In this document: one piece after another, positions 46,509 through 64,000 of the stretch
Layout: every line of letters begins with the position of its first letter
How positions within the stretch are numbered: the stretch's first letter is position 1
Made by a program: the position numbers and the translations under genes
The notes under the pieces: model-generated
What the model was told of the DNA's origin: nothing
Seen by the model: the letters and a program-made list of their open reading frames with translations, nothing else
Database searches by the model: none
Assembly (NCBI RefSeq): GCF_000024465.1
Contig: NC_014010.1
Location: forward strand, 1,054,001-1,118,000
Source of the DNA: Candidatus Puniceispirillum marinum IMCC1322
GTDB lineage: Bacteria; Pseudomonadota; Alphaproteobacteria; Puniceispirillales; Puniceispirillaceae
Length of the DNA: 64,000 nucleotides
Direction: 5' to 3'

Positions 46509-46994
46509 ATGGCATCTGCACCAAAATCAACGTCATCCAAATCCGAAACCAAACTGGTCAAGGAACTGGCTGACATTCTTGATGCGTCAGGACTGGCGGA
46601 AATCGAATATGAAACCGAAGCTGTGTCGATCCGTTTGTCACGTGTAACAGGGGCGATGCCCGTCGCCGCCGTGGCGCCTGCCGCACCTGCACCCGTAGCG
46701 CCTGCCGCACCTGCACCCGTGACGCCTGCCGCCAACGCGCCCGCCAATCCAGCCAGCCATCCCGGCGCGGTCACATCGCCAATGGTTGGCACCGTCTATA
46801 CATCACCCGAACCTGATGCCCCTGCCTTTATTTCCGAAGGCGACACTGTCAAGGCTGGTCAGACATTATTCATCGTCGAGGCAATGAAAGTGATGAATCC
46901 CATCACCGCGCCAAAAGCAGGCAAAATCTCGACTATCCTTGTGCAGAACGCCCAGCCAGTAGAATTTGGTGAAGCTCTAGTAATTATAGAATAA
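46509..46994 (+). CDS. accB: biotin carboxyl carrier protein of acetyl-CoA carboxylase
   Basis: 161 residues from ATG at 46509 (the frame is open far upstream inside aroQ, but that part is out of place). An N-terminal helical domain, a Pro/Ala linker and a C-terminal biotinyl domain with the biotinylated Lys in EAMKVMN. The linker arises from a tandem 24-bp duplication (46674-46697 and 46698-46721, one difference) encoding APAAPAPV twice. With accC it forms the biotin part of acetyl-CoA carboxylase in fatty acid synthesis. Confidence 0.93.
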
Positions 46995-50848: not shown

Positions 50849-53800
50849 ATGCATTTTGAAAGACGATTCACCCAGGACGGAACCAATCCTTACGACAAAC
50901 TAGCTTTCAGGTTCGCCACCAGTGAAATTCGTAATCCAGACGGCACAATTGTGTTTCGGGCTGAGAACGTAGAAATTCCAGAGCAATTTTCACAAGTTGC
51001 CACCGATATCCTTGCGCAGAAATATTTCCGCAAGGCCGGCGTGCCTGCGGCTTTGAAGCGCGTTGAAGAAAGCGCTGTACCATCATGGCTTTGGCGTTCG
51101 ATTCCTGATGAAGCGGCTTTGGCGAAACTGCCTGAAGATGAGCGCTTTACCGGCGAAACATCCGCCAAGCAGGTTTATGACCGGCTTGCGGGCACCTGGA
51201 CCTATTGGGGCTGGAAAGGTGACTATTTTTCTACCGAAGAGGATGCCAAGGTTTATTTTGATGAAATGCGCTTCATGCTGGCCAACCAGATGGCCGCGCC
51301 AAATTCGCCGCAATGGTTCAACACGGGCATGCATTGGGCTTATGGTATCGATGGCCCAAGCCAGGGACATTATTATGTCGATTTCAAAACCGGCAAGCTA
51401 ACCCGTTCGGCAAGCGCTTATGAGCATCCGCAGCCGCATGCCTGTTTCATCCAGTCTGTCAGCGACGATCTGGTCAATGAAGGCGGCATCATGGATCTGT
51501 GGGTACGTGAAGCCCGCCTGTTCAAATATGGTTCGGGCACCGGATCAAACTTCAGCCGCTTGCGCGGTTCGGGTGAAAACCTATCCGGCGGTGGTAAATC
51601 ATCTGGCTTGATGAGCTTTTTGCGCATTGGTGACCGGGCTGCCGGTGCCATCAAGTCTGGCGGCACAACCCGCCGCGCCGCAAAAATGGTGACTGTCGAT
51701 ATCGACCATCCTGATATCGAAGAATATGTCGATTGGAAAGTTGTCGAAGAACAAAAGGTTGCCGCGCTTGTTGCGGGATCGAAACTGGCGCAAAAGCATA
51801 TGGGCGAAGTCATGGCTGCCTGTCAGATCACTGACGGGTTGGATGACGATGAGCGCTTTGATCCCAAGGTCAATAAGGTGCTGCGCAAAGCTATTATTTC
51901 TGCGCGTAAATCCATGATCCCTGAAAATTATGTTCAGCGCGTGATTCAATTTGCCCAGCAAGGCTATAACGAAATTGAATTCAAAACCTATGATACCGAC
52001 TGGGACTCAGACGCCTATCTGACCGTTGCTGGCCAGAATTCAAACAATTCGGTGCGCGTCAGCAATGACTATCTTCAGGCGGTGCTTGACGGCGGCGACT
52101 GGAATTTGATCAAACGCCGCGATGATGGCGTTGCCAAAACCATCAAAGCCAAGGATCTTTGGGAAAAGATTGCGCATGCCGCATGGGCCTGTGCTGATCC
52201 GGGTCTGCAATATGACACCACCATCAATGAGTGGCATACCTGCCCTGAAGGGGGGCGGATCAACGCGTCTAATCCATGTTCGGAATATATGTTCCTTGAT
52301 GATACTGCCTGTAATCTGGCGTCATTGAACCTAATGCAGTTCCGCAAACAAGACGGCACATTCGATATCGAGATGTTTGAACATGGCTGTCGTTTCTGGA
52401 CGCTAACGCTGGAAATTTCGGTTTTGATGGCGCAGTTCCCCTCAAAGGAAATTGCCCAGCTATCATATGAGTATCGCACATTGGGTCTGGGTTTTGCCAA
52501 TATCGGTGGCTTGCTGATGGCACAAGGCCATTCATATGACAGTGATGAAGGCCGTGCGATCTGTGGTGCTATTTCGGCGATCATGACCGGCACATCCTAT
52601 GCCACATCAGCTGAAATCGCTGGTGAAGTAGGTCCCTTCCCGCAATATAAGAAAAACGCCAAACATATGTTGCGGGTGATGAAGAACCATCGTCTGGCCG
52701 CGCACAGCAAGGCGTCAGGCTATAAAGGTCTGTCAATCCTGCCCGTACCACTTGACGCAAAATCATGTCCAGATCAGGATCTGGTCAATGCGGCAAAGGC
52801 AGCATGGGACAAGGCTGTCGATCTTGGCACCAAGAATGGTTACCGCAACGCCCAGTCAACCGTCATCGCGCCAACAGGCACCATCGGTCTGGTTATGGAT
52901 TGTGACACCACCGGAATCGAGCCAGACTTTGCCATCGTAAAGTTCAAAAAGCTGGCCGGCGGTGGTTACTTCAAGATCATCAACCGGGTTGTTCCCGAAG
53001 CCTTGGATAAGCTTGGCTATGGTAAGGATCAGGTCAAAGACATTATCAATTATGCCGTTGGTGCGGGATCATTGAAAAACTGTCAGTCGATTTCGGTCAA
53101 TGCGCTTAAAGACAAAGGCTTTGGTGATGCCGAACTGGCAAAAGTCGAAGCCGCTATGGAAAGCGCCTTTGATGTGAAATTCGTCTTCAACCGCTTCACC
53201 CTTGGTGACGAATTCTGCAAGGACAAGCTGGGCTTTTCGGATGAACAGCTGAATGATTTCGAATTCAACATGCTCGAAGCGCTTGGCTTTGACAAAGACG
53301 CGGTCGAAGCGGCCAACATACATGTTTGTGGATCAATGACACTCGAAGGTGCACCGCATCTAAAAGACGAACATCTACCTATCTTTGACTGTGCCAATGT
53401 ATGTGGACGTATCGGCAAACGCTTCCTGTCGGTTGATAGCCACATCACCATGATGGCTGCATCCCAGCCCTTCATTTCGGGCGCGATTTCCAAGACTATC
53501 AATATGCCGAATGCGGCAACAGTTGAAGAATGCGGGGCGGCCTATATGCTGTCATGGCGTCTTGGCCTGAAAGCCAATGCGCTATACCGTGACGGATCAA
53601 AGCTGAGCCAGCCTTTGTCATCTGGCCTTGTTGAAGATATCGAAGACGATGATGAGGCTATGGCCGCGCTGGAAACACCGGTGGCTGCTGCCGCGCCGCA
53701 GGTGATTGAGAAAATCGTCGAGCGTATCGTCCGTGCCGAACGTGACCGTCTGCCTGACCGCCGTAAAGGCTATACGCAGAAAGCCAGCGTTGGTGGACAT

Positions 53801-54496
53801 AAGGTCTATCTACGGACAGGTGAATATGAAGATGGCCGCATTGGCGAGGTCTTTATCGATATGCATAAAGAAGGTGCTGCCTTCCGTTCATTGATGAATA
53901 ACTTTGCTATCGCTGTATCGATTGGTCTGCAATATGGCGTTCCACTCGAAGAGTTTGTCGAAGCCTTTACCTTCACCCGTTTCGAGCCACAAGGCATCGT
54001 GACTGGCAATGATGCGATCAAGATGTCAACCTCGATTCTTGATTATACATTCCGCGAACTGGCAATTTCATATCTTGACCGCCACGATCTTGGACATGTC
54101 AATCGCGACGATCTTGACGTCACCACAACTGGCAGCGGTGAAAATCAGTCTGAGCTTATGAACAAGGTCACCAGCCGTGGCTTTATCCGTAAGCAAGGTC
54201 TTGTTGTGTACTCGAATGAAGGTACCGCCGCCCTTGCCGAGCCTGTCGCCAACACGGCATCAGAAACAGCCAGTATAGCGACCATGCGCACAGCCGAAGC
54301 GCCAGTTGCCAGGGCTGACGCAGGGACTGTGGCAAGTGCAGATACAGCACCGAACATTGCCATTGAACGTGTGCAACAGGCACGGATTCAAGGCTATGAA
54401 GGTGAAGCCTGTCCTGAATGTCAGAACTTTACCCTTGTTCGCAATGGAACCTGTCTAAAATGTAATACCTGTGGTGGCACTACAGGATGTAGCTAG
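50849..54496 (+). CDS. nrdJ: adenosylcobalamin-dependent ribonucleotide reductase (class II)
   Basis: 1215 residues, typical for the long alphaproteobacterial NrdJ. The (beta-alpha)10 barrel contains [35 protein letters not shown] (with the Cys-Glu active-site motif) and [15 protein letters not shown]. The C-terminus ends in a Cys cluster ([24 protein letters not shown]) needed for re-reduction. It makes deoxynucleotides with B12 and does not need oxygen. A ribosome binding site (GAGGACG) and a strong terminator frame the gene. Confidence 0.95.
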
Positions 54497-54526
54497 GCTC
54501 TCCCTGCAGAGTAACCTGCAGAACTG

Positions 54527-54556
54527 GCCTCATACCTCCGGGTATGAGGCTTTTTT
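54527..54556 (+). terminator. rho-independent terminator of nrdJ
   Basis: GCCTCATACC (54527-54536) pairs perfectly with GGTATGAGGC (54541-54550), with loop TCCG, followed by TTTTTT. Confidence 0.9.
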
Positions 54557-54667
54557 CTGATCTAAAACGGGCGGAAAGTGACACCGGAATCGCTTGTCCT
54601 CACCAGAGGTTTATGCGACCTTCCATATATTCTTATAGCCACAGCAAAATTAAGGGAACTTGAAATC

Positions 54668-55135
54668 ATGACAAGCAAGGTCGAAACACGTTTGAACGAA
54701 ATGGGCATAACAATTCCCGATGCACCAGCACCGGCAGCAAATTATGTCCCCTATGTTGTCAGCGGCAATCTGGTTTTCGTATCGGGTCAGGTACCTTTTG
54801 TTGATGGTAAACTGACCGCCACCGGCACCGTTGGTAAAGACGCCACCCCCGAAGATGCCACTGAACAGGCGCGTATCTGTGCGATTAATTTGATCGCCCA
54901 GGTCAAAGTTGCCTGTGATGGGGATCTCGATCGGGTCACACGCGTTGTCAAACTTGGTGCCTTTGTCGCCTCGGCTGATGATTTCAATGGCCAGCCTGGC
55001 ATCGTCAATGGTGCTTCCGATCTGATGGTCGAAGCTTTTGGCGACGCTGGTCGTCATGCACGTTTTGCGGTTGGAACAAATGCCCTGCCGCTGAACTGTC
55101 TTGTCGAAATTGATGGTGTTTTCGAAATCAAATAG
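54668..55135 (+). CDS. RidA-family enamine/imine deaminase
   Basis: 155 residues from ATG at 54668; the frame continues upstream without a good start. RidA/YjgF features: PAANYVPYVVSGNLVFVSGQVPFVDGK, the NGASDLMVEAFGDAGRHARFAVGTNALPLNCLVEID end with the substrate-binding Arg. RidA proteins hydrolyse reactive enamines released by PLP enzymes. A terminator follows about 85 bases downstream. Confidence 0.92.
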   Translation: MTSKVETRLNEMGITIPDAPAPAANYVPYVVSGNLVFVSGQVPFVDGKLTATGTVGKDATPEDATEQARICAINLIAQVKVACDGDLDRVTRVVKLGAFVASADDFNGQPGIVNGASDLMVEAFGDAGRHARFAVGTNALPLNCLVEIDGVFEIK

Positions 55136-55220
55136 CCGTTAATTATGGCCACGCATACAGGCCATCATCCGGTATTACCAGCCGGGCTATGGCCAATCTT
55201 AAAATCATCCAACAATATGC

Positions 55221-55248
55221 GCCGACCCCCTTGTAGGGTCGGCTTTTT
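55221..55248 (+). terminator. rho-independent terminator after the RidA gene
   Basis: GCCGACCC (55221-55228) pairs with GGGTCGGC (55236-55243), loop of seven bases, followed by TTTTT. Confidence 0.88.
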
Positions 55249-55266
55249 ATTGCCACTTTCTTATAT

Positions 55267-56415
55267 ATGGACGGTCTCGATTTTACCCTGGAACAATCCC
55301 GCGACATAAGCGCAATCAGCGCTGATGAATGGAATCGGCTGGCGGGCGATGGCAACCCCTTTGTCCGGCATGAATTTCTGCAAGCCATGGAAACTGGCGG
55401 CGGCGTCGGCAATGATAGTGGCTGGGATCCCCTGCATCTTCTTCTGCGTGATAGTGAGGGCAGTTTGCTGGGCGTGGTGCCGCATTACATAAAGCATCAT
55501 TCCTATGGTGAGTATATTTTTGATCATAGCTGGGCAGATGGCTTTATGCGCGCAGGTGGACAATATTATCCAAAATTGCTGGGGGCGGTGCCTTTTACAC
55601 CTGCCACTGGGCCGCGTTTGCTAGCCTACGACAATCGTGACGATATCAAGGTTGCACTTGCCTATGGCATCACCCAAATGGTTGATAAATACGGCCTGTC
55701 TTCGGCGCATCTGAATTTTCTGCCCGAAGATGATCTGCCCGCTTTAGAGGCGGCAGGATGGCTAATCCGTTCGGGTTTGCAATTTCACTGGCATAATAAT
55801 GGCTATAAGGATTTTGACGATTTTCTCTCTGGCCTGTCGTCACGCAAGCGCAAAAACATCAAAAAAGAACGCCAGTCGATTCGCGATGCCGGTGTCCACA
55901 TGATCGCCCTGACAGGTGAAGACATCACCCCGGCACATATCGACATTTTTTTCCGTTTCTATATGTCAACAATCGATCGCAAATGGGGCGGTGCCTATCT
56001 AACGCATGACGTATTCAGACATTTACAACAGATGATGGCTGACAAAATTTTGCTGGTCATGGCTGAATATCAGGGTCGGATTATTGCCGGTGCGATCAAT
56101 TTTATCGGTGATGATTGTCTGTATGGACGTAATTGGGGTGCCGATCTGGATATTCCGAATCTGCATTTCGAAGCCTGCTATTATCAGGCTATCGATTTTG
56201 CCATCGCCCACGGCCTTGCCCGCGTCGAAGCTGGCGCACAAGGCTTTCATAAAGTTCAACGCGGTTATTTGCCTGCCAAAACCTATTCGGCGCACTGGAT
56301 CGCGCATGACGGATTCAAGGATGCCATTGCCCGGTTTCTAGTAGCCGAAAGCCGGGGCATCGAAGCCGAAAAGAACCATATTGATTTTGTCAGCCCATTT
56401 AAGAAAGATAACTAG
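55267..56415 (+). CDS. FemAB-like / DUF482 GNAT acyltransferase
   Basis: 382 residues. Two GNAT-like lobes: WNRLAGDGNPFVRHEFLQAMETGG...GVVPHYIKHHSYGEYIFDHSWADGF and SGLSSRKRKNIKKERQSIRDAG...ISTIDRKWGGAYLT...RVEAGAQGFHKVQRGYLP. This is the 'peptidogalycan biosynthesis' DUF482/FemAB-like family, with the RKNIKKERQ block as its mark. The acceptor is unknown. It ends 12 bases from the stop of the convergent clpA. Confidence 0.85.
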   Translation: MDGLDFTLEQSRDISAISADEWNRLAGDGNPFVRHEFLQAMETGGGVGNDSGWDPLHLLLRDSEGSLLGVVPHYIKHHSYGEYIFDHSWADGFMRAGGQYYPKLLGAVPFTPATGPRLLAYDNRDDIKVALAYGITQMVDKYGLSSAHLNFLPEDDLPALEAAGWLIRSGLQFHWHNNGYKDFDDFLSGLSSRKRKNIKKERQSIRDAGVHMIALTGEDITPAHIDIFFRFYMSTIDRKWGGAYLTHDVFRHLQQMMADKILLVMAEYQGRIIAGAINFIGDDCLYGRNWGADLDIPNLHFEACYYQAIDFAIAHGLARVEAGAQGFHKVQRGYLPAKTYSAHWIAHDGFKDAIARFLVAESRGIEAEKNHIDFVSPFKKDN

Positions 56416-56427
56416 CAAAAAAGACAG

Positions 56428-58722
56428 CTAGCCATCCTGTGGTGCGGGTAAGGCCGTGCGCTTGCTGCTAGGCAAGGCACGTTGCGGTGGGGCTTTCACC
56501 TCGACCACAAGCTCACCATCCTTAACATCGACAAAGGCAAGGCCGCCACCAGCAAGCTCGCCAAATAGCAACGCATCGGCAAGTGGCTTTTTGATGCTTT
56601 CCTGCACAACGCGGGCCAGCGGGCGGGCACCGTAATTACGGTCATAACCGCGCACGGCCAACCAGTCACGCGCCGCCTCACTCAACTCAATCTCGACATT
56701 ACGATCTGCCAGCTGGGCATCAAGCTGCATCATGAATTTATCAACAACAAGCCGGATCACATCACTTTCCAATGGCGCAAACGGTATCATCGCATCAAGA
56801 CGGTTACGGAATTCAGGCGTAAACATTTTCTCGATCGCTTCGATATCGGCACCATCATTCATGTCTCGGCCAAAACCGATCGCCTTTTTCGATAGCTCTT
56901 GGGCGCCTGCATTCGTTGTCATAATCAGAATGACATTGCGGAAATCAACTGATTTACCGTTATTATCCGTCAACTTGCCATGATCCATCACTTGCAACAG
57001 AATATTGAACAGATCTGGATGCGCTTTTTCAATTTCATCCAGCAGCAGTACCGCATGCGGTGTTTGATCGACAGCATCGGTCAACAGCCCGCCCTGATCA
57101 AAGCCAACATAACCCGGAGGCGCCCCGATCAGACGCGATACGGTATGCCGTTCCATATATTCGGACATATCAAACCGGATCAACTTAATGCCAAGCGCTT
57201 CGGCTAATTGCCGCGCAACTTCGGTCTTGCCAACGCCAGTAGGGCCCGAAAACAGATAATTACCAACTGGCTTTTCAACTTCACGTAAACCAGCACGCGA
57301 TAGTTTGATGGCCGAAGACAGCGCCGATATCGCCGCATCCTGTCCAAAGACCAGACGTTTTAGATCATCTTCAAGCGTTGCCAGAACCGCCTTATCATCA
57401 CGGCTCACATGCTTTGACGGGATACGCGCCATCGTTGCAATTGTCGCTTCGATTTCCTTTTGCCCCACCGTGGCCTTGCGACGTGATGGTGGCAGCAGAT
57501 TTTGGGCGGCGGCAGCCTCGTCAATAACGTCAATCGCTTTGTCAGGCAATTTGCGGTCATTAATATAGCGTGCTGCCAGATCAACCGCTGTCTTTAGGGC
57601 GGCACCGGTATAACGGATCTTGTGATGCGCTTCATAGCGGCTTTTCAGACCATTCAGAATTTTGATGGTATCGGCCACAGTTGGCTCGGCAACATCAATT
57701 TTCTGGAAGCGGCGCACCAGTGCCCGGTCTTTTTCGAAATGACCGCGATATTCCTTATAGGTTGTTGAGCCAATACAGCGCAGATTGCCTTCCTGCAATG
57801 CCGGCTTTAACAGGTTAGAGGCGTCCATAGCCCCACCCGATGTGGCGCCAGCACCAATCACTGTATGGATTTCATCAATGAACAGAATGGCATTTTCATC
57901 ATCTTCAACCGCTTTCATAACGGCTTTGAGACGTTCTTCAAAATCACCACGATAGCGCGTACCTGCCAGCAACTGCCCCATATCAAGCGCATAGATGACA
58001 GCATTTGTCAGTACTTCCGGCACCTCACCATTATAAATCCGCAAGGCCAGTCCTTCGGCAATCGCGGTCTTACCAACGCCCGGATCACCAACATAAAGCG
58101 GGTTATTCTTGGTACGGCGACATAGCACCTGAATCGTGCGATCAACTTCGCGGTCCCGCCCGATTAGTGGGTCGATGCGGCCATTTGCGGCCTTGGCAAT
58201 CAGGTTGACTGCATATTGGCTAAGCGGATCACTGCCAGCATCGTCAATAGGCTCGCCTTCAGTCTGATCTTCGGTGCCACGCGCGATATTGCCATCCTTG
58301 CCGTGGCTTAGGAATGATACGGCGTCAAGCCGGGTCATATTGAGCGACTTTAGAAACCAGACAGCATGGCTTTCACGCTCGGAAAAGATCGAGACCAGTA
58401 CATTGGCACCTGTGGCAACTTCACGGCCTGATGACTGGGTATGGATAATGGCACGTTGAATCACACGCTGGAAAGACGCTGTTGGCTGGACATCAAGCCC
58501 ATCTTTGGTGCTCACAATCGATTCAAGCTCGACTTCGATATATTCCTGTAACTTGCGCGCTAGCTCCTGAATATCAACATTACAGGCATTCAAGACCTCA
58601 AGCGCATCACTATCTTCGGTCAGGGCAAGTAACAGATGTTCAAGCGTTGCAAATTCATGCGCACGTGTTGTCGCATTCGACATGGCACGGCGTAGGGACT
58701 CTTCCAGTTCACGAGACAGCAT
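56428..58722 (-). CDS. clpA: ATP-dependent Clp protease ATP-binding subunit ClpA
   Basis: 764 residues. An N-terminal double Clp-N domain ([35 protein letters not shown]), the first AAA+ module with Walker [14 protein letters not shown], the second with [13 protein letters not shown] and sensor/Walker [14 protein letters not shown], and a D2-small end. It unfolds substrates for ClpP. It starts five bases after clpS, and the two are one operon. Confidence 0.96.
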
Positions 58723-58727
58723 TTACC

Positions 58728-59051
58728 CTATTCCTTTTCCAATTGAAGTTGCAACGGATGCTCTTTTTGACGTGCATATTCCATAGTCTTGCTAGCTTTT
58801 GTTTCGGCAATTTCAAAACTGTAAATGCCACAGATACCAACACCACGTTGATGGACATTCAGCATGATCTGTGTTGCTTCATCAGCCGTCCGGCCAAAGA
58901 AATGTTGCAAAACATGCACAACAAATTCCATCGGCGTATAGTCGTCATTCATCATCACGACCTTATACATTGAGGGCTTTTTTGTCTGAGTTCGGCTTTC
59001 CAGAATAATCTGGCCCGAACCTCCATCCTGTTTTTTGTCTTTATCTGTCAT
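58728..59051 (-). CDS. clpS: ClpA adaptor protein ClpS
   Basis: 107 residues. The N-terminal basic/Gln region is followed by [24 protein letters not shown], with the conserved N-degron pocket residues (Asp, Thr, Met in DDYTPMEFV), and [28 protein letters not shown]. It delivers N-end-rule substrates to ClpA. The aat gene for making such substrates is in this window. Confidence 0.96.
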
Positions 59052-59350
59052 AATCTGCTCGCTGGCATGAACGAATGCCGCACCTATATCTTAACGTATT
59101 TAACATTATACCTAAATTACCCGATATCGCTACATAACGCTTATCACAATTATGATATCGGCATTAAATGCTGTTGGAAAAGGGGTTGAAATAAAAAAAA
59201 TCATCTCTAGGCGCTTTAAAAAAAGCATCTATTAAGAAAAAGGTAAAAAATTGGGTAAGATTCTTGATTGAAAGCTTAATTCCGGTATGATTCCTGCACA
59301 AGTGGATTGGGTTAACGCGCCGGTTGCGGTGCTTGTCAGGAACGCATTTT

Positions 59351-60664
59351 ATGGCTGTTAAAAATATCTGCTTAACTGCTGTTGCCGATGTCAAAAGACT
59401 GCGGGCTTTTTTCATATTTATGATGCTGTCTTGTGGTGCCCTGATCTGGCCACAACAAGCGATGGCTTCCAAATATGCCTCAATCGTGATCAATGCTGAG
59501 AGTGGCCGGGTCATGTATGCACGTAATGCCGATGCCATGCGCTATCCGGCATCTTTGACCAAAATCATGACGCTGTATCTATTGTTCGAAGAAATAAAAT
59601 CTGGCCGCATGGATATGAATTCGCGGATTGGCGTGTCCAAACTTGCTGCCAGCCGTTCACCATCAAAGCTATATCTCAAACCTGGGCAGTCAATCAGCGC
59701 CGAACAGGCTATCTATGCGCTGGTGACCAAGTCAGCCAACGATGTAGCAACCGCCGTTGCCGAGGCCATTTCAGGTACCGAACGAAACTTTGCCAAGCGC
59801 ATGACACGTAAAGCGCGCGCGCTGGGCATGCGTAAAACCGTATTTAAAAACGCTTCGGGCTTGCCACATAGCCAGCAAAAGACAACCGCACGTGATATGG
59901 CGCGGCTGGCTGTTGCCATGCGGCGTGATTTCCCACGCCTATACCGTTATTTCAGCACGCAGAACTTTAACTGGAAAGGCCGTAAATTTGGCAACCATAA
60001 CAAGTTGTTGGCGCATTATTCAGGCACCGATGGCATCAAGACAGGCTATATCAATGCTTCCGGTTTCAATCTTGTGGCCTCGGTCAAGCGGCATGGTGTA
60101 CGGCTGATTGGTGTGATCTTTGGCGGCAAAACATCACGGTCACGCGATGCGCATATGATGAAAATTCTGGACGCACAATTCAAGCGGGCAAAGCCTGCAG
60201 AGATCAGCGCGCAAGTGGCCGCCGTCGATATGCCACAAAAATTGCCCAAATCGCCCCCCAAGCGTAGCAATCTTGTGAAAGTCAGGCGGCTTGCCAAGCT
60301 ACCTTTGCCGAAAGAGGAATTTCTGGACACGCCACAAACTTTCAGCCTATCCAGTTCTGGGGCAAGAAGATCACCCGAGGAAATGCCTGATGCGGCCATT
60401 GACGAGGTCTGGAGCGTTCAGATTGGCAGTTTTGCCCGCCGCGTCAATGCCCATCGGGCGGCTGCCAAAGCGCGGCGTATGGTCGATAATGTGCTTGGCA
60501 TGACACCAGCACGCCTGACATTGGTGACAAGTGGCAATATGCCATTGTGGCGCGTTCGCTTTCATGATCTTGACGAAACCCAGGCCCGATCTGCCTGTGC
60601 CGCCCTATTCGCCGAAGGAAGCCCCTGTATTGCCGTGCGCGAGAAAATTCGCAATACAAGTTAG
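59351..60664 (+). CDS. dacF: D-alanyl-D-alanine carboxypeptidase with SPOR domain
   Basis: 437 residues from ATG at 59351; the upstream part of the frame is less likely. A signal peptide (LRAFFIFMMLSCGALIWPQQAMAS) precedes a DacF-type serine peptidase: S-x-x-K in YPASLTKIM, S-x-N in TKSANDVA and KTG in GIKTGYINASGFN. The C-terminal 75 residues (EVWSVQIGSFARRVNAHRAAAKARR...LWRVRF) form a SPOR domain that binds denuded glycan at septa. It trims peptidoglycan stem peptides, likely at division sites. Confidence 0.92.
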   Translation: MAVKNICLTAVADVKRLRAFFIFMMLSCGALIWPQQAMASKYASIVINAESGRVMYARNADAMRYPASLTKIMTLYLLFEEIKSGRMDMNSRIGVSKLAASRSPSKLYLKPGQSISAEQAIYALVTKSANDVATAVAEAISGTERNFAKRMTRKARALGMRKTVFKNASGLPHSQQKTTARDMARLAVAMRRDFPRLYRYFSTQNFNWKGRKFGNHNKLLAHYSGTDGIKTGYINASGFNLVASVKRHGVRLIGVIFGGKTSRSRDAHMMKILDAQFKRAKPAEISAQVAAVDMPQKLPKSPPKRSNLVKVRRLAKLPLPKEEFLDTPQTFSLSSSGARRSPEEMPDAAIDEVWSVQIGSFARRVNAHRAAAKARRMVDNVLGMTPARLTLVTSGNMPLWRVRFHDLDETQARSACAALFAEGSPCIAVREKIRNTS

Positions 60665-60710
60665 TCTGGCACCATCAGCATAAATTTCCAGACTTTCAAA
60701 ACGAACGTCA

Positions 60711-61139
60711 TCACGGTTTGAAAAAATCATCCAGATGTGGCACATCCGGATCAGGTTTGCACCATAAGGGATGGCTGATGGCGAATATCTGGCCGCGTAC
60801 ACGCAGCATATCATTATCATCAAGTACGCCCGGGGCAATGGATATACGCCCCTCGCCATTCATAGAATAGAACATACATGACCCGCAGACATTACAAAAG
60901 CCGCGTTTGGCCCAACTGGAGCTGTCATACCAGCGCAAAGCATCCGATGATGAGGTGATTTTGAAACAATGATCAGGCACCGAGGTCGCTGCCCAGCTAG
61001 TCCCCGAAATCCGGCGACAATCATCACAATGGCAAATCAAAAGTGGCGTCAAAGGCCCGATCAGGCGAAAACGCACCGCCCCGCAATGACAGCCACCATC
61101 AAAATATTTATTTTCGGTTCCGGTAATCGTCTCGTACAT
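60711..61139 (-). CDS. GFA-family (glutathione-dependent formaldehyde-activating-like) zinc protein
   Basis: 142 residues. Zinc/thiol motifs CHCGAVRFRL, CHCDDCRR and FCNVCGSCMFYS match the GFA/CENP-V family. The substrate of most members is unknown, and the name does not prove formaldehyde metabolism. It stands alone between two genes on opposite or same strands. The parS-like site lies about 100 bases from its start. Confidence 0.88.
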   Translation of the reverse strand: MYETITGTENKYFDGGCHCGAVRFRLIGPLTPLLICHCDDCRRISGTSWAATSVPDHCFKITSSSDALRWYDSSSWAKRGFCNVCGSCMFYSMNGEGRISIAPGVLDDNDMLRVRGQIFAISHPLWCKPDPDVPHLDDFFKP

Positions 61140-61236
61140 GCGCCTCTGCCTCTGCCTTTTCCATCTGACATCAATAATGCCTGATAATGGTTAAGAAAAA
61201 GTGTGCAGGAAGATAGTTTTGACGAAATTTCAAAAA

Positions 61237-61252
61237 TGTTTCACGTGAAACA
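61237..61252. promoter_or_regulatory. parS-type ParB binding site
   Basis: TGTTTCACGTGAAACA matches exactly the 16-bp chromosomal parS consensus. It is the centre of a 22-bp perfect palindrome (61234-61255). It lies in the 225-base gap between the GFA gene and the large repeat protein, so it is non-coding. ParB-type proteins load at such sites near replication origins. Confidence 0.85.
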
Positions 61253-61364
61253 TTTCGTGAACAAACATGCGTTGCGCGGCAATAGAATTCCAAGAAACAG
61301 GCAAATAGTCAGGAACACCCAGCTAAAATCAACAACTCAAACAAGACAGGTCAGCGATAGAGGA

Positions 61365-64000
61365 TCAGAGAAAATCGTTCTGAACCGTGCCAATTTCTTC
61401 CGTCCCCGCATCGGGCACAAAATCATCATCCGGTTGCACGACCTCTGTCATCGCCCTGCCACTGCCACCGCTCTGGCCAGATGTCGACTGTCCAGATGCT
61501 GCCGAAATGTTAATGGTCAGTGTTAATTGACCGTTTATAGCAGTTCCTTCGCCTTCGTAAACCGTGATTATCAGAGTTATCGTTTCACCGGGGTTGAGTT
61601 GCGCATCACTCTTAACCTTAAGACGATAATGAACCCCCTCAAGATGCCCGGGTACGATCTTGTTAAGATAACTGGGCTCATATTTCACCAGTTCAAACCT
61701 AGTATCATCGCTCAACTCATACCTTAAATCCGTTGGCTCGCCCTCTCCCTTAAGGTCGTCTGGATCATAGATGGCAATATTCTTCAGATATTCGCGGGAG
61801 CCAGGCGTAAAGTTAAAGGTTGCAGAATCATTTTGCCTCAACGTCACAATGGGGTTTTCAGGCACGTCATTCACATTGAGATAGAAGATTTTGTCGGCAG
61901 AAGGATTCATGGCTGAACTATCACGTAGCACGACCTTAATCACGGCCTGACTAGGCCTTGTTGAGCCTTCTTCATAAGTCACATGCTTTTCAAAATCAAA
62001 TGTGGCATCGGGTTTCACCCATAGCTCATGCTGGTTCCGCACCTCAAACTTAATTTCACTGCGGTCTCGGATGAGATCAGACACCAGATCATCATTAATC
62101 TTATAGAGGAAAAACGCCGGTGCAAACGAAGGAGTAATGGTCGCGACGGCGGCGGTTGAATAGGTCATATTCTCCCCGAGGACGACCGCTGTGTTGTCAA
62201 GTATTATATCATCGTCCCTATAGAAGAAGAATACTTTCTCCATTCTCAACACATTGGTGCCATCACTCACATCCAGCTCAAGCTTGTAACTTCCGGCTCT
62301 CGGCGGGGTGAAGCTTGTGCTCGTAACCGGAGTACCGAGTGTCACTGTACCTCGCGGATCCCTGCTCCAAGTCATCCATTTGTATGTGAAGGTAAGCTCA
62401 ACACCCTCAGGATCTTTGAAATTTTCCTCATTAATTGAATATTCAACCCCTGAAGGCAACAGTAAATCTGTATCAACCGGTACGCTGCTTCTGCCGGTTC
62501 CTGTCATAAGTTCAAGACTGCCAAATGGAATTTCATTCGCCACATCAGTCAACTGGATCGGGACATGAAGCTTTGCCGTGTTACCTTCTCTGTCCCTAAC
62601 GGTGATTCGCAATTCAATCAGGCCATTCGGATTATGCTCGCTCTCGAAATCCAGGCTTTTATTAGCCTTGACCGAAAGCTTGCCATTACTTCTAACCGAA
62701 AATCGCGTATCTATGGCGAAAGAGCCATCCGCCTGACGACTTTCAATCGTCATCACATACCCGACATATTCGGTGCCACGCAAGGCCGTAAACAGATTGG
62801 AAACGCTCGATGTTAGGTAAAAACCTGTACCCTTTCCACTGGCATTTCCATGTGTTTCCTGGATTTCTTTCTGGGTAGCGTCCGGGTCACTAAAACCAAG
62901 GGTCAGATCGCTTTGCAACGCGGTGTCGACGGTGAATTCCCCGCTAAAGTACCGTGACGAGCTACCTGATGCAGTCTCTGTGACGCGCAAACGGTAGGTT
63001 CCTGCCTCTGTCGGTGTGAAACGCACACTGGTTGCATTCGGCACATCCTGCCAAACATTGTTCACCTTCTGCTCCCATCCATAAGTACGCTGTGTCGGGT
63101 TAGTGCTAGAACCAGCAGATTTCAATGGAGCTGTTAGTGTTTCACCAGTATACGCTCTGTTATTTTCAACACCAAACACGGACAGGATTTCCTGTCCGAC
63201 TGGCATTTCCTGTCCGACTGGCGGATCACCGATGTCAGGTGTAGACTGTTCCACCACCACATTGATCCGCATGGTATATTCGGCGCTGAGGAGGCTGTCA
63301 TTATAATAATCATTGTACCTAAATTTGAACCCAAAATCGTAGCTCGCAGTCGGTTGATAGGTCAGACTAGGCAGGTCATTAATCGCGATCACCTGCCCCT
63401 TTGTCACATCACTATTGTTCAGCAACAGCCTTGCATTATTTGTTGGCAGACGGCTGATTATTACAGCCGTGACAGTCAAATCAGAATTCGTCATACGCGT
63501 GCCAGCCGTGAAATCGACCAGAGTGAAGCTCGTCACCTCATTCCCCTGAACGCTGGATTTCACCTTTGCGACCTGAAATTCTATCTCTTCTTGTATGACT
63601 GTATCTGATTTGTCAGTGGCCTTAATGATCAGGGTGATCGGATCGTAGGACGTGATAGTATTACCCTGTTTCAAAAACAGGGAATAGGACTGTTTGGGCG
63701 GTTCACCATTGAAATTAAATCCCGTTGGTCTGTTAATGCTAAAAGGAGCAATTCCAAAACGGTCATCACTCAGTTCAACTTTAACACCGAATTTTTCTAT
63801 GTTATCGTGAATGCTCCGGATGTTGTCCGGATCGTAAATTTCCAGACGAATCCCGGTATAGAAATTCTGAGCCGCTTCGGTGGTGGTTGGCAACACGAGT
63901 TGGTTTCCATTAATATTGATAACCGGATCTTCTAGAACGTTGTCCACATTCAGCGTGAATGTAATATCTGTAGAGCTCTCATCATTAATCTGGTGACGTA
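61365..64000 (-). CDS. very large cadherin/Ig-like repeat surface protein, C-terminal part (runs off right edge)
   Basis: The frame is open to the end of the window (about 880 residues here; the upstream reading HQINDESSTDITFTLNV continues past the last ATG/GTG), so the front is missing. It is made of beta-sandwich repeats: several copies of a D-x-N-E-x-P type border (VDNVLEDPVI, LTDVANEIPFG, VNDVPENPIV) with Asp-rich loops typical of calcium-binding cadherin/VCBS domains, and Ig-like blocks (YGWEQKVNNVWQDVPNATSVRFTPTEAGTYRLRV). A local tandem PVGQE repeat occurs near 63190. The last 40 residues are Ser/Gly-rich and acidic without a cell-wall sorting or autotransporter end. An adhesin or secreted giant protein is likely. 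Confidence 0.8.
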   Translation of the reverse strand, partial: RHQINDESSTDITFTLNVDNVLEDPVININGNQLVLPTTTEAAQNFYTGIRLEIYDPDNIRSIHDNIEKFGVKVELSDDRFGIAPFSINRPTGFNFNGEPPKQSYSLFLKQGNTITSYDPITLIIKATDKSDTVIQEEIEFQVAKVKSSVQGNEVTSFTLVDFTAGTRMTNSDLTVTAVIISRLPTNNARLLLNNSDVTKGQVIAINDLPSLTYQPTASYDFGFKFRYNDYYNDSLLSAEYTMRINVVVEQSTPDIGDPPVGQEMPVGQEILSVFGVENNRAYTGETLTAPLKSAGSSTNPTQRTYGWEQKVNNVWQDVPNATSVRFTPTEAGTYRLRVTETASGSSSRYFSGEFTVDTALQSDLTLGFSDPDATQKEIQETHGNASGKGTGFYLTSSVSNLFTALRGTEYVGYVMTIESRQADGSFAIDTRFSVRSNGKLSVKANKSLDFESEHNPNGLIELRITVRDREGNTAKLHVPIQLTDVANEIPFGSLELMTGTGRSSVPVDTDLLLPSGVEYSINEENFKDPEGVELTFTYKWMTWSRDPRGTVTLGTPVTSTSFTPPRAGSYKLELDVSDGTNVLRMEKVFFFYRDDDIILDNTAVVLGENMTYSTAAVATITPSFAPAFFLYKINDDLVSDLIRDRSEIKFEVRNQHELWVKPDATFDFEKHVTYEEGSTRPSQAVIKVVLRDSSAMNPSADKIFYLNVNDVPENPIVTLRQNDSATFNFTPGSREYLKNIAIYDPDDLKGEGEPTDLRYELSDDTRFELVKYEPSYLNKIVPGHLEGVHYRLKVKSDAQLNPGETITLIITVYEGEGTAINGQLTLTINISAASGQSTSGQSGGSGRAMTEVVQPDDDFVPDAGTEEIGTVQNDFL

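Follow-up and report, generated by a model that had tools for sequence, protein, structure and literature searches.

Scattered parS sites with an overlapping LexA-like half-operator in Candidatus Puniceispirillum marinum and other alphaproteobacteria

Why does an exact chromosomal parS sequence lie in the middle of a chromosome arm of Candidatus Puniceispirillum marinum IMCC1322? The site is found near the right end of the window, the 64,000-nucleotide stretch of DNA analysed here (positions 1,054,001–1,118,000 of the genome, a single contig of 2,753,527 bp). An earlier note on this DNA had described an intergenic, exact match to the chromosomal parS 16-mer within a perfect 22-bp palindrome, and all three parts of this description were confirmed. 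The exact 16-bp palindromic core TGTTTCACGTGAAACA occupies positions 61237–61252 of the window, and the perfect palindrome around it spans 61234–61255. The site lies between a gene with a GFA domain (PF04828; 60711–61139, minus strand) and a large adhesin-like repeat gene, whose 3' part (61365–63998, minus strand) extends past the right window border. It is located upstream of the GFA-domain gene, 97 bp from the start codon; on its other side, the adhesin-like gene has its 3' end 112 bp away. The latter gene comprises over 2,500 codons including the part beyond the window, and its adhesin-type matches are below the cut-offs except for VCBS and choice-anchor. At up to three mismatches the window contains two parS-like matches, the exact copy and a three-mismatch one at position 46634, compared with a mean of 0.35 matches in 100 shuffles.

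Distribution of parS along the chromosome

Exact parS occurs 18 times in the whole genome, in which single-mismatch copies are absent and three copies have two mismatches; the reversed parS sequence, used as a control, had no match in the whole genome. Eight of the exact copies form a cluster at 1,812,124–1,817,028, beside gidA, gidB, parA and parB, with further neighbours that we take from reading of the ORFs to be rho, mnmE and hemE. The chromosomal ParB has ParB_N and HTH_ParB domains, and its gene adjoins parA, gidA and gidB; the sole match to TIGR00180 (ParB) in the genome is at 1,818,686–1,819,204. In 533 kb of sampled stretches, GC skew has a positive sign between position 1 and 0.34 Mb, a negative one between 0.44 and 1.76 Mb, and is positive again from 1.805 Mb onwards, where a single near-zero value, at 2.05 Mb, has the opposite sign. 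Judged from these sign changes, the origin is close to the parS cluster and the terminus lies around 0.4 Mb. Ten exact copies remain outside the cluster and are scattered along both arms, at −1290, −1097, −968, −699 (the window copy), −495, +367, +609, +815, +942 and +943 kb from the cluster.

The window parS is thus a mid-arm site, 699 kb from parB and the eight-copy cluster. Of the two possibilities raised by the earlier note, an isolated distal parS proved right, and one of several origin-region sites is not supported, with parB and the eight clustered copies at the GC-skew sign change; the same distance speaks against the suggestion that the right end of the window is in or near the origin ParB-bound domain, a reading ruled out by position. 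The statement that parA, parB, gidA and gidB are absent from the window stands for parB, whose sole TIGR00180 match lies outside; for the other three genes, the copies found adjoin parB, and their absence from the window rests on the ORFs listed for positions 52000–64000 and, for the rest, on the earlier note itself. The site is a chromosomal parS by its exact 16-mer and by the presence of a cognate chromosomal ParB in the genome; the usual near-origin place of parS, which is typical and not strictly defining, is not shared by this copy. Given the exact identity of the 16-mer and the single ParB, we infer with strong confidence that ParB would load at sites of this type.

A GTTC element at the scattered copies

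The window copy reads GTTCACGAAATGTTTCACGTGAAACA on the minus strand at genome positions 1115237–1115262. It includes the tetranucleotide GTTC (window positions 61259–61262, minus strand), which is separated by exactly 7 bp from the GTTT of the parS arm that follows it on that strand, and the whole composite, TTGTTCACGAAA followed by parS, extends over 61237–61264 (minus strand), so that parS is overlapped by a LexA-like half-operator. Among the copies of this genome, GTTC at exactly this distance was found at eight of the ten scattered copies vs none of the eight cluster copies, and the GTTC-bearing copies are the eight intergenic ones. The upstream form is TTGTTCACGAAA-parS at five of them, TTGTTCCCGTTA-parS at two and CGTTCCTGTTT-parS at one. 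Two distal copies located inside cysS and thiD (genome positions 717937 and 2181298) both have no GTTC element. The occurrence of GTTC-N7 before parS at scattered, never at cluster copies is new here; the literature on parS, ParB and LexA, as far as its text was available and with the Livny 2007 survey of parS positions represented by papers citing it, yielded no LexA/parS composite. A long dispersed repeat or mobile element was considered as the source of the pattern and rejected, as, apart from the composite, the 18 copies have little in common within 40 bp on each side (39/80 for the best pair).

The comparison within the family used 39 genomes with a completeness of 80% or more, one of them the source genome; the 38 relatives possess zero to three parS copies each, including seven with none. 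One locus each was analysed for 29 of the 31 parS-bearing relatives: all 29 loci are at gid, par, mnmE or rho genes, and none has GTTC-N7 at parS. Among the places listed, further copies in the relatives are no more than about 5 kb away from the first one, with the exception of three genomes (G011, G018 and G035) that have parS copies on two contigs. Inheritance from the family is contradicted by these copy numbers, by the origin-type position of all 29 loci and by their lack of GTTC-N7. The earlier note had proposed that its reading would be refuted if all other parS sites lay in a distant cluster and this copy were not conserved in relatives. The outcome is mixed: a distant cluster exists and the relatives have few copies, and on the other side there are nine further scattered copies and an extra element shared by the scattered class.

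Beyond this family, the composite was found in several alphaproteobacterial lineages. A scan of genome contigs with GTTCNCGNNA-parS retrieved 53 stretches, of which 28 belong to Erythrobacter, Porphyrobacter or other Erythrobacteraceae, often with several per genome. The others are from Micavibrio, further alphaproteobacterial MAGs, some Actinobacteria and elsewhere, and the matches in Actinobacteria and elsewhere look like chance. In six of these genomes, G422 to G427, exact parS occurs in 15, 8, 17, 20, 7 and 11 copies, respectively. The main count comprised all 88 copies of eight genomes: the source genome (G000) and G063, G229, G422, G423, G425, G426 and G427, the latter seven chosen via at least one copy matching a narrower form of the motif. 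GTTC is present at position −10 in 44 of 54 distal vs 0 of 34 origin copies (Fisher p 1.8e-15), where origin means a locus with gid or par genes (in G427, gidA and mnmE only), and distal means another contig or a distance of about 100 kb or more, the true distance being not fixed in draft genomes. At any other offset from −4 to −30, GTTC was found in zero or one of the distal copies. The element occurs at 8/10 distal copies in G000, 2/3 in G063, 2/2 in G229, 8/10 in G422, 4/4 in G423, 10/15 in G425, 2/2 in G426 and 8/8 in G427. After subtraction of the 16 composites that fit the selection pattern (seven of them in the source genome), it is still present at 28 of 38 distal copies.

Three genomes stand outside this count: G424 (17 copies, read in part), G313 and G416. 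In G313, 16 of whose 18 copies were read, GTTC-N7 precedes 6 of 10 non-origin copies and none of the six at the parAB locus, and some of the copies form 34-bp arrays; in both G313 and G255, parS copies 33–34 bp apart were found away from parAB, most of them preceded by GTTC-N7. The 5.5-Mb alphaproteobacterial genome G416 possesses 52 exact parS copies, many of them paired 37 bp apart; it has no spacer-7 match, and GACC/GGTC-like flanks are found where GTTC would be.

Among 389 alphaproteobacterial genomes, most have zero to three parS copies, and 14 genomes have six or more (from a table read by eye). A search of the same set for GTTC-N(2–12)-parS gave 100 matches, 37 of them at spacer 7 (29 outside the source genome), compared with 16 at spacer 4, 14 at spacer 3, 9 at spacer 9 and at most five elsewhere; it should be noted that related genomes and arrays are not independent in these counts. 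The spacer-7 matches come from 14 genomes of eight families. A further 17 spacer-7 regions were retrieved: in 13 (families f25, f27, f70 and f120) the stretch is free of origin-type genes, and in four it includes one. In the latter four the base before GTTC is not T, and we take them as chance for this reason, yet they argue against an absolute rule. Spacer 7 is absent from 10 of the 14 many-copy genomes, again as read by eye (G042, G046, G189, G246, G265, G275, G322, G358, G398 and G416), suggesting that a high copy number does not by itself entail the element. A phage origin was rejected as well, as viral contigs show no clear enrichment of spacer 7 (48 stretches vs 29 at spacer 6 and 40 at spacer 8).

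Conservation was analysed at orthologous distal sites of Erythrobacter genomes G422–G425, where nine groups were picked by eye among the matches listed, so that at least nine exist. All members kept GTTC in seven of the nine; in another group it is present in one of two members, the other having a spacer of 8, and in the last group it is absent. Within the seven groups, pairwise identity is 2/12 at −6, 8/12 at −5 and 1–7/12 at −30 to −12, suggesting that the flanks drifted while GTTC and parS stayed; the 12/12 identity of GTTC and parS follows from the choice of groups, and the values for the flanks are reduced by sites that are flipped. The composite points the opposite way relative to the aligned flanks in two pairs (L194/L203 and L107/L190), and its orientation may therefore be of no consequence. 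Judged by their sequences, scattered parS copies with an overlapping (T/A)TGTTC, in which GTTC-N7-GTTT runs into the parS arm, represent a distinct class of sites.

Likeness to the LexA operator and competing readings

The alphaproteobacterial LexA motif is described as GTTC-N7-GTTC (PMC3323433), and the Caulobacter LexA consensus as (T/A)TGTTC(N6)TGTTC (PMC13384398). Nine genomes were checked, the eight of the main count among them, and in all nine GTTC-N7-GTTC was found upstream of the lexA match, at a distance of about 160 bp or less; in the source genome it also precedes umuDC. In front of lexA in the source genome, three GTTC units follow one another at 11-bp intervals and make up a doubled LexA operator (528646–528672). 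Exact TGTTC-N6-TGTTC occurs in this genome at ten places, three of them at lexA and umuDC, and no SOS gene was recognised at the remaining ones.

The composite shares with the LexA operator the half-site, the spacing and the outer bases. Among the 44 composites, A or T is present at −12 in 34 (p 8e-6) and T at −11 in 34 (p 5e-14); the window copy, TTGTTC, fits the (T/A)T before the first LexA half-site. In contrast to the operator, the composite has GTTT as its second half, other spacer bases and no recognised SOS promoter. The window site does not have two GTTC half-sites at N7, its second half being GTTT because parS demands it; a GTTT-type operator was not seen at lexA in the genomes checked, and the doubly perfect site GTTC-N7-GTTCCACGTG occurs in none of the loci retrieved. 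At spacer position −5, C or T is found in 42 of 44 composites vs 4 of 10 lexA operators (p 2e-4), a preference not shared by the other flank of the composite sites. The contexts of the 44 composites are tandem in 17 cases, convergent in 10, divergent in 3, inside mechanical ORFs in 12, some of these ORFs being probably spurious in GC-rich DNA, and undecided in 2; no SOS promoter was recognised among the identified neighbours of the distal sites in the source genome. Because of the GTTT half, the differing spacer bases, the contexts and the absence of a recognised SOS promoter, the window site is best regarded as a parS carrying a LexA-like half-operator and is not classed among the LexA operators.

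We tentatively favour the possibility, which falls somewhat short of an even chance, that these distal copies serve to load ParB, are overlapped by a LexA half-operator and stay masked until the DNA is damaged. In its favour are the restriction of GTTC-N7 to distal copies in the main count, the excess of spacer 7 among the 389 genomes, the likeness to the operators at lexA and umuDC, the retention of GTTC at most orthologous Erythrobacter sites and its lack at the 29 origin-type loci of the relatives. Against it stand the GTTT second half, the preference at −5, the contexts without a recognised SOS promoter, the 10 many-copy genomes with no spacer-7 match, the four spacer-7 regions with origin-type genes and the choice of seven genomes of the main count via a narrower motif. 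Binding of LexA across GTTC-N7-GTT, with exclusion of ParB, can be proposed with moderate confidence. A rather unlikely alternative is that another protein reads (T/A)TGTTC-N-Y and either assists or opposes ParB at distal parS, LexA being uninvolved. It would account for the GTTT second half, for the preference at −5 that differs from lexA operators and for the location of the composites away from recognised SOS promoters; the register and the outer bases, however, are those of the LexA operator, and no candidate protein is at hand. Even without LexA, the fixed register of the second element at distal copies of these genomes, and its absence from their origin copies, would mark distal parS as a separate functional class awaiting its partner protein.

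The GTTC element could also be a third ParB half-site that aids binding at a single isolated parS. The consensus TGTTCACG equals the parS arm minus one T, C at −5 (32/44) and G at −4 (27/44) fit the parS arm, and other ParB proteins are described as binding the half-sites GTTCCAC and GTTTCAC (PMC10419367). This explanation is nevertheless improbable, as the ParB arm and the flank agree in only 4.7 of 8 bases at the best ungapped offset, A is found at −6 in 16 of 44 composites, GTTC is present all or none, and half-site binding by Caulobacter ParB is relatively weak according to the same source (PMC10419367). We consider it very improbable that the sites are ordinary distal parS copies as in B. 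subtilis, with a GTTC flank of no role: scattered parS is indeed described for a few lineages such as Bacilli (PMC8357415), but the 44/54 vs 0/34 distribution in a single register and the retention of GTTC by all members of seven of the nine orthologous groups (at least nine exist) argue otherwise. Also very improbable is an operator for the neighbouring gene, for which the position of the window site upstream of a start codon, that of the GFA-domain gene 97 bp away, would speak, since 10 of 44 composites are convergent and only 3 divergent and the neighbours vary between sites; a promoter operator in general was rejected on the mostly tandem or convergent contexts, which are based on mechanical ORFs, 12 of the 44 composites lying inside one.

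Possible role of the composite and related ParB systems

If LexA does mask the distal parS copies, the following scheme can be envisaged. ParB would nucleate at the distal copies, and in undamaged cells LexA bound to the overlapping GTTC-N7-GTT would keep it off. Cleavage of LexA would open the distal sites, and ParB would then load along the arms, its candidate partners being condensin or an inhibitor of division, for example MipZ. As an outcome, division or segregation might be held back, or sister arms might be kept together during repair. The SOS unmasking and the chromosome-wide effect through ParB, condensin or MipZ are speculative. A masking device would be reasonable, because ectopic parS is disfavoured at mid-arms in Caulobacter (PMC5815017) and condensin collisions arise from distal parS (PMC8357415), as far as the available text of these sources goes. 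The more general proposal of damage-gated centromeres in several alphaproteobacterial lineages, with LexA masking arm parS, SOS unmasking it and ParB turning into a chromosome-wide checkpoint, is possible but doubtful. If true, the checkpoint would consist in a division block or in sister-arm cohesion, and would be a direct, non-transcriptional output of LexA. The masking model, if right, would link the SOS repressor directly to the centromere protein and would explain the tolerance of some bacteria for parS on chromosome arms.

Several known systems resemble the scattered copies in part. The scattered parS copies of B. subtilis likewise provide ParB sites outside the main group at the origin (PMC8357415), but lie within about 0.75 Mb of the origin, whereas here the copies are distributed along both arms; the available text of PMC8357415 mentions no LexA-like overlap. 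Dispersed ParB targets are also described in Pseudomonas aeruginosa (PMC10419367, PMC7022226), where they are half-parS sites, single arms GTTCCAC/GTTTCAC, in contrast to the full palindromes found here. With the Caulobacter-type chromosomal parS the window copy shares the exact 16-mer and the one ParB encoded beside parA, gidA and gidB; unlike that type it is 699 kb off the cluster and has an asymmetric GTTC absent from cluster copies. Noc is a ParB paralogue with its own binding site. Noc sites are similar, in idea only, in being scattered targets of a ParB-type protein that might act as a division inhibitor; they differ in that here there is one TIGR00180 match and the site is a canonical parS. 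No dedicated Noc paralogue was recognised in the genome with this model, for which a paralogue may be too distant.

Two of the distal composites in the source genome have neighbours worth recording. The composite at genome position 524818 is located 3.9 kb upstream of lexA and immediately precedes a row of genes that runs from trpD to a moeA-like gene and lexA and includes two genes that we take from reading of the ORFs to be trpC and moaC. The composite at genome position 4049 is found 209 bp before a 1596-codon gene, which demonstrates weak similarity to DNA-phosphorothioation restriction enzymes (73.6 bits, with a cut-off of 600).
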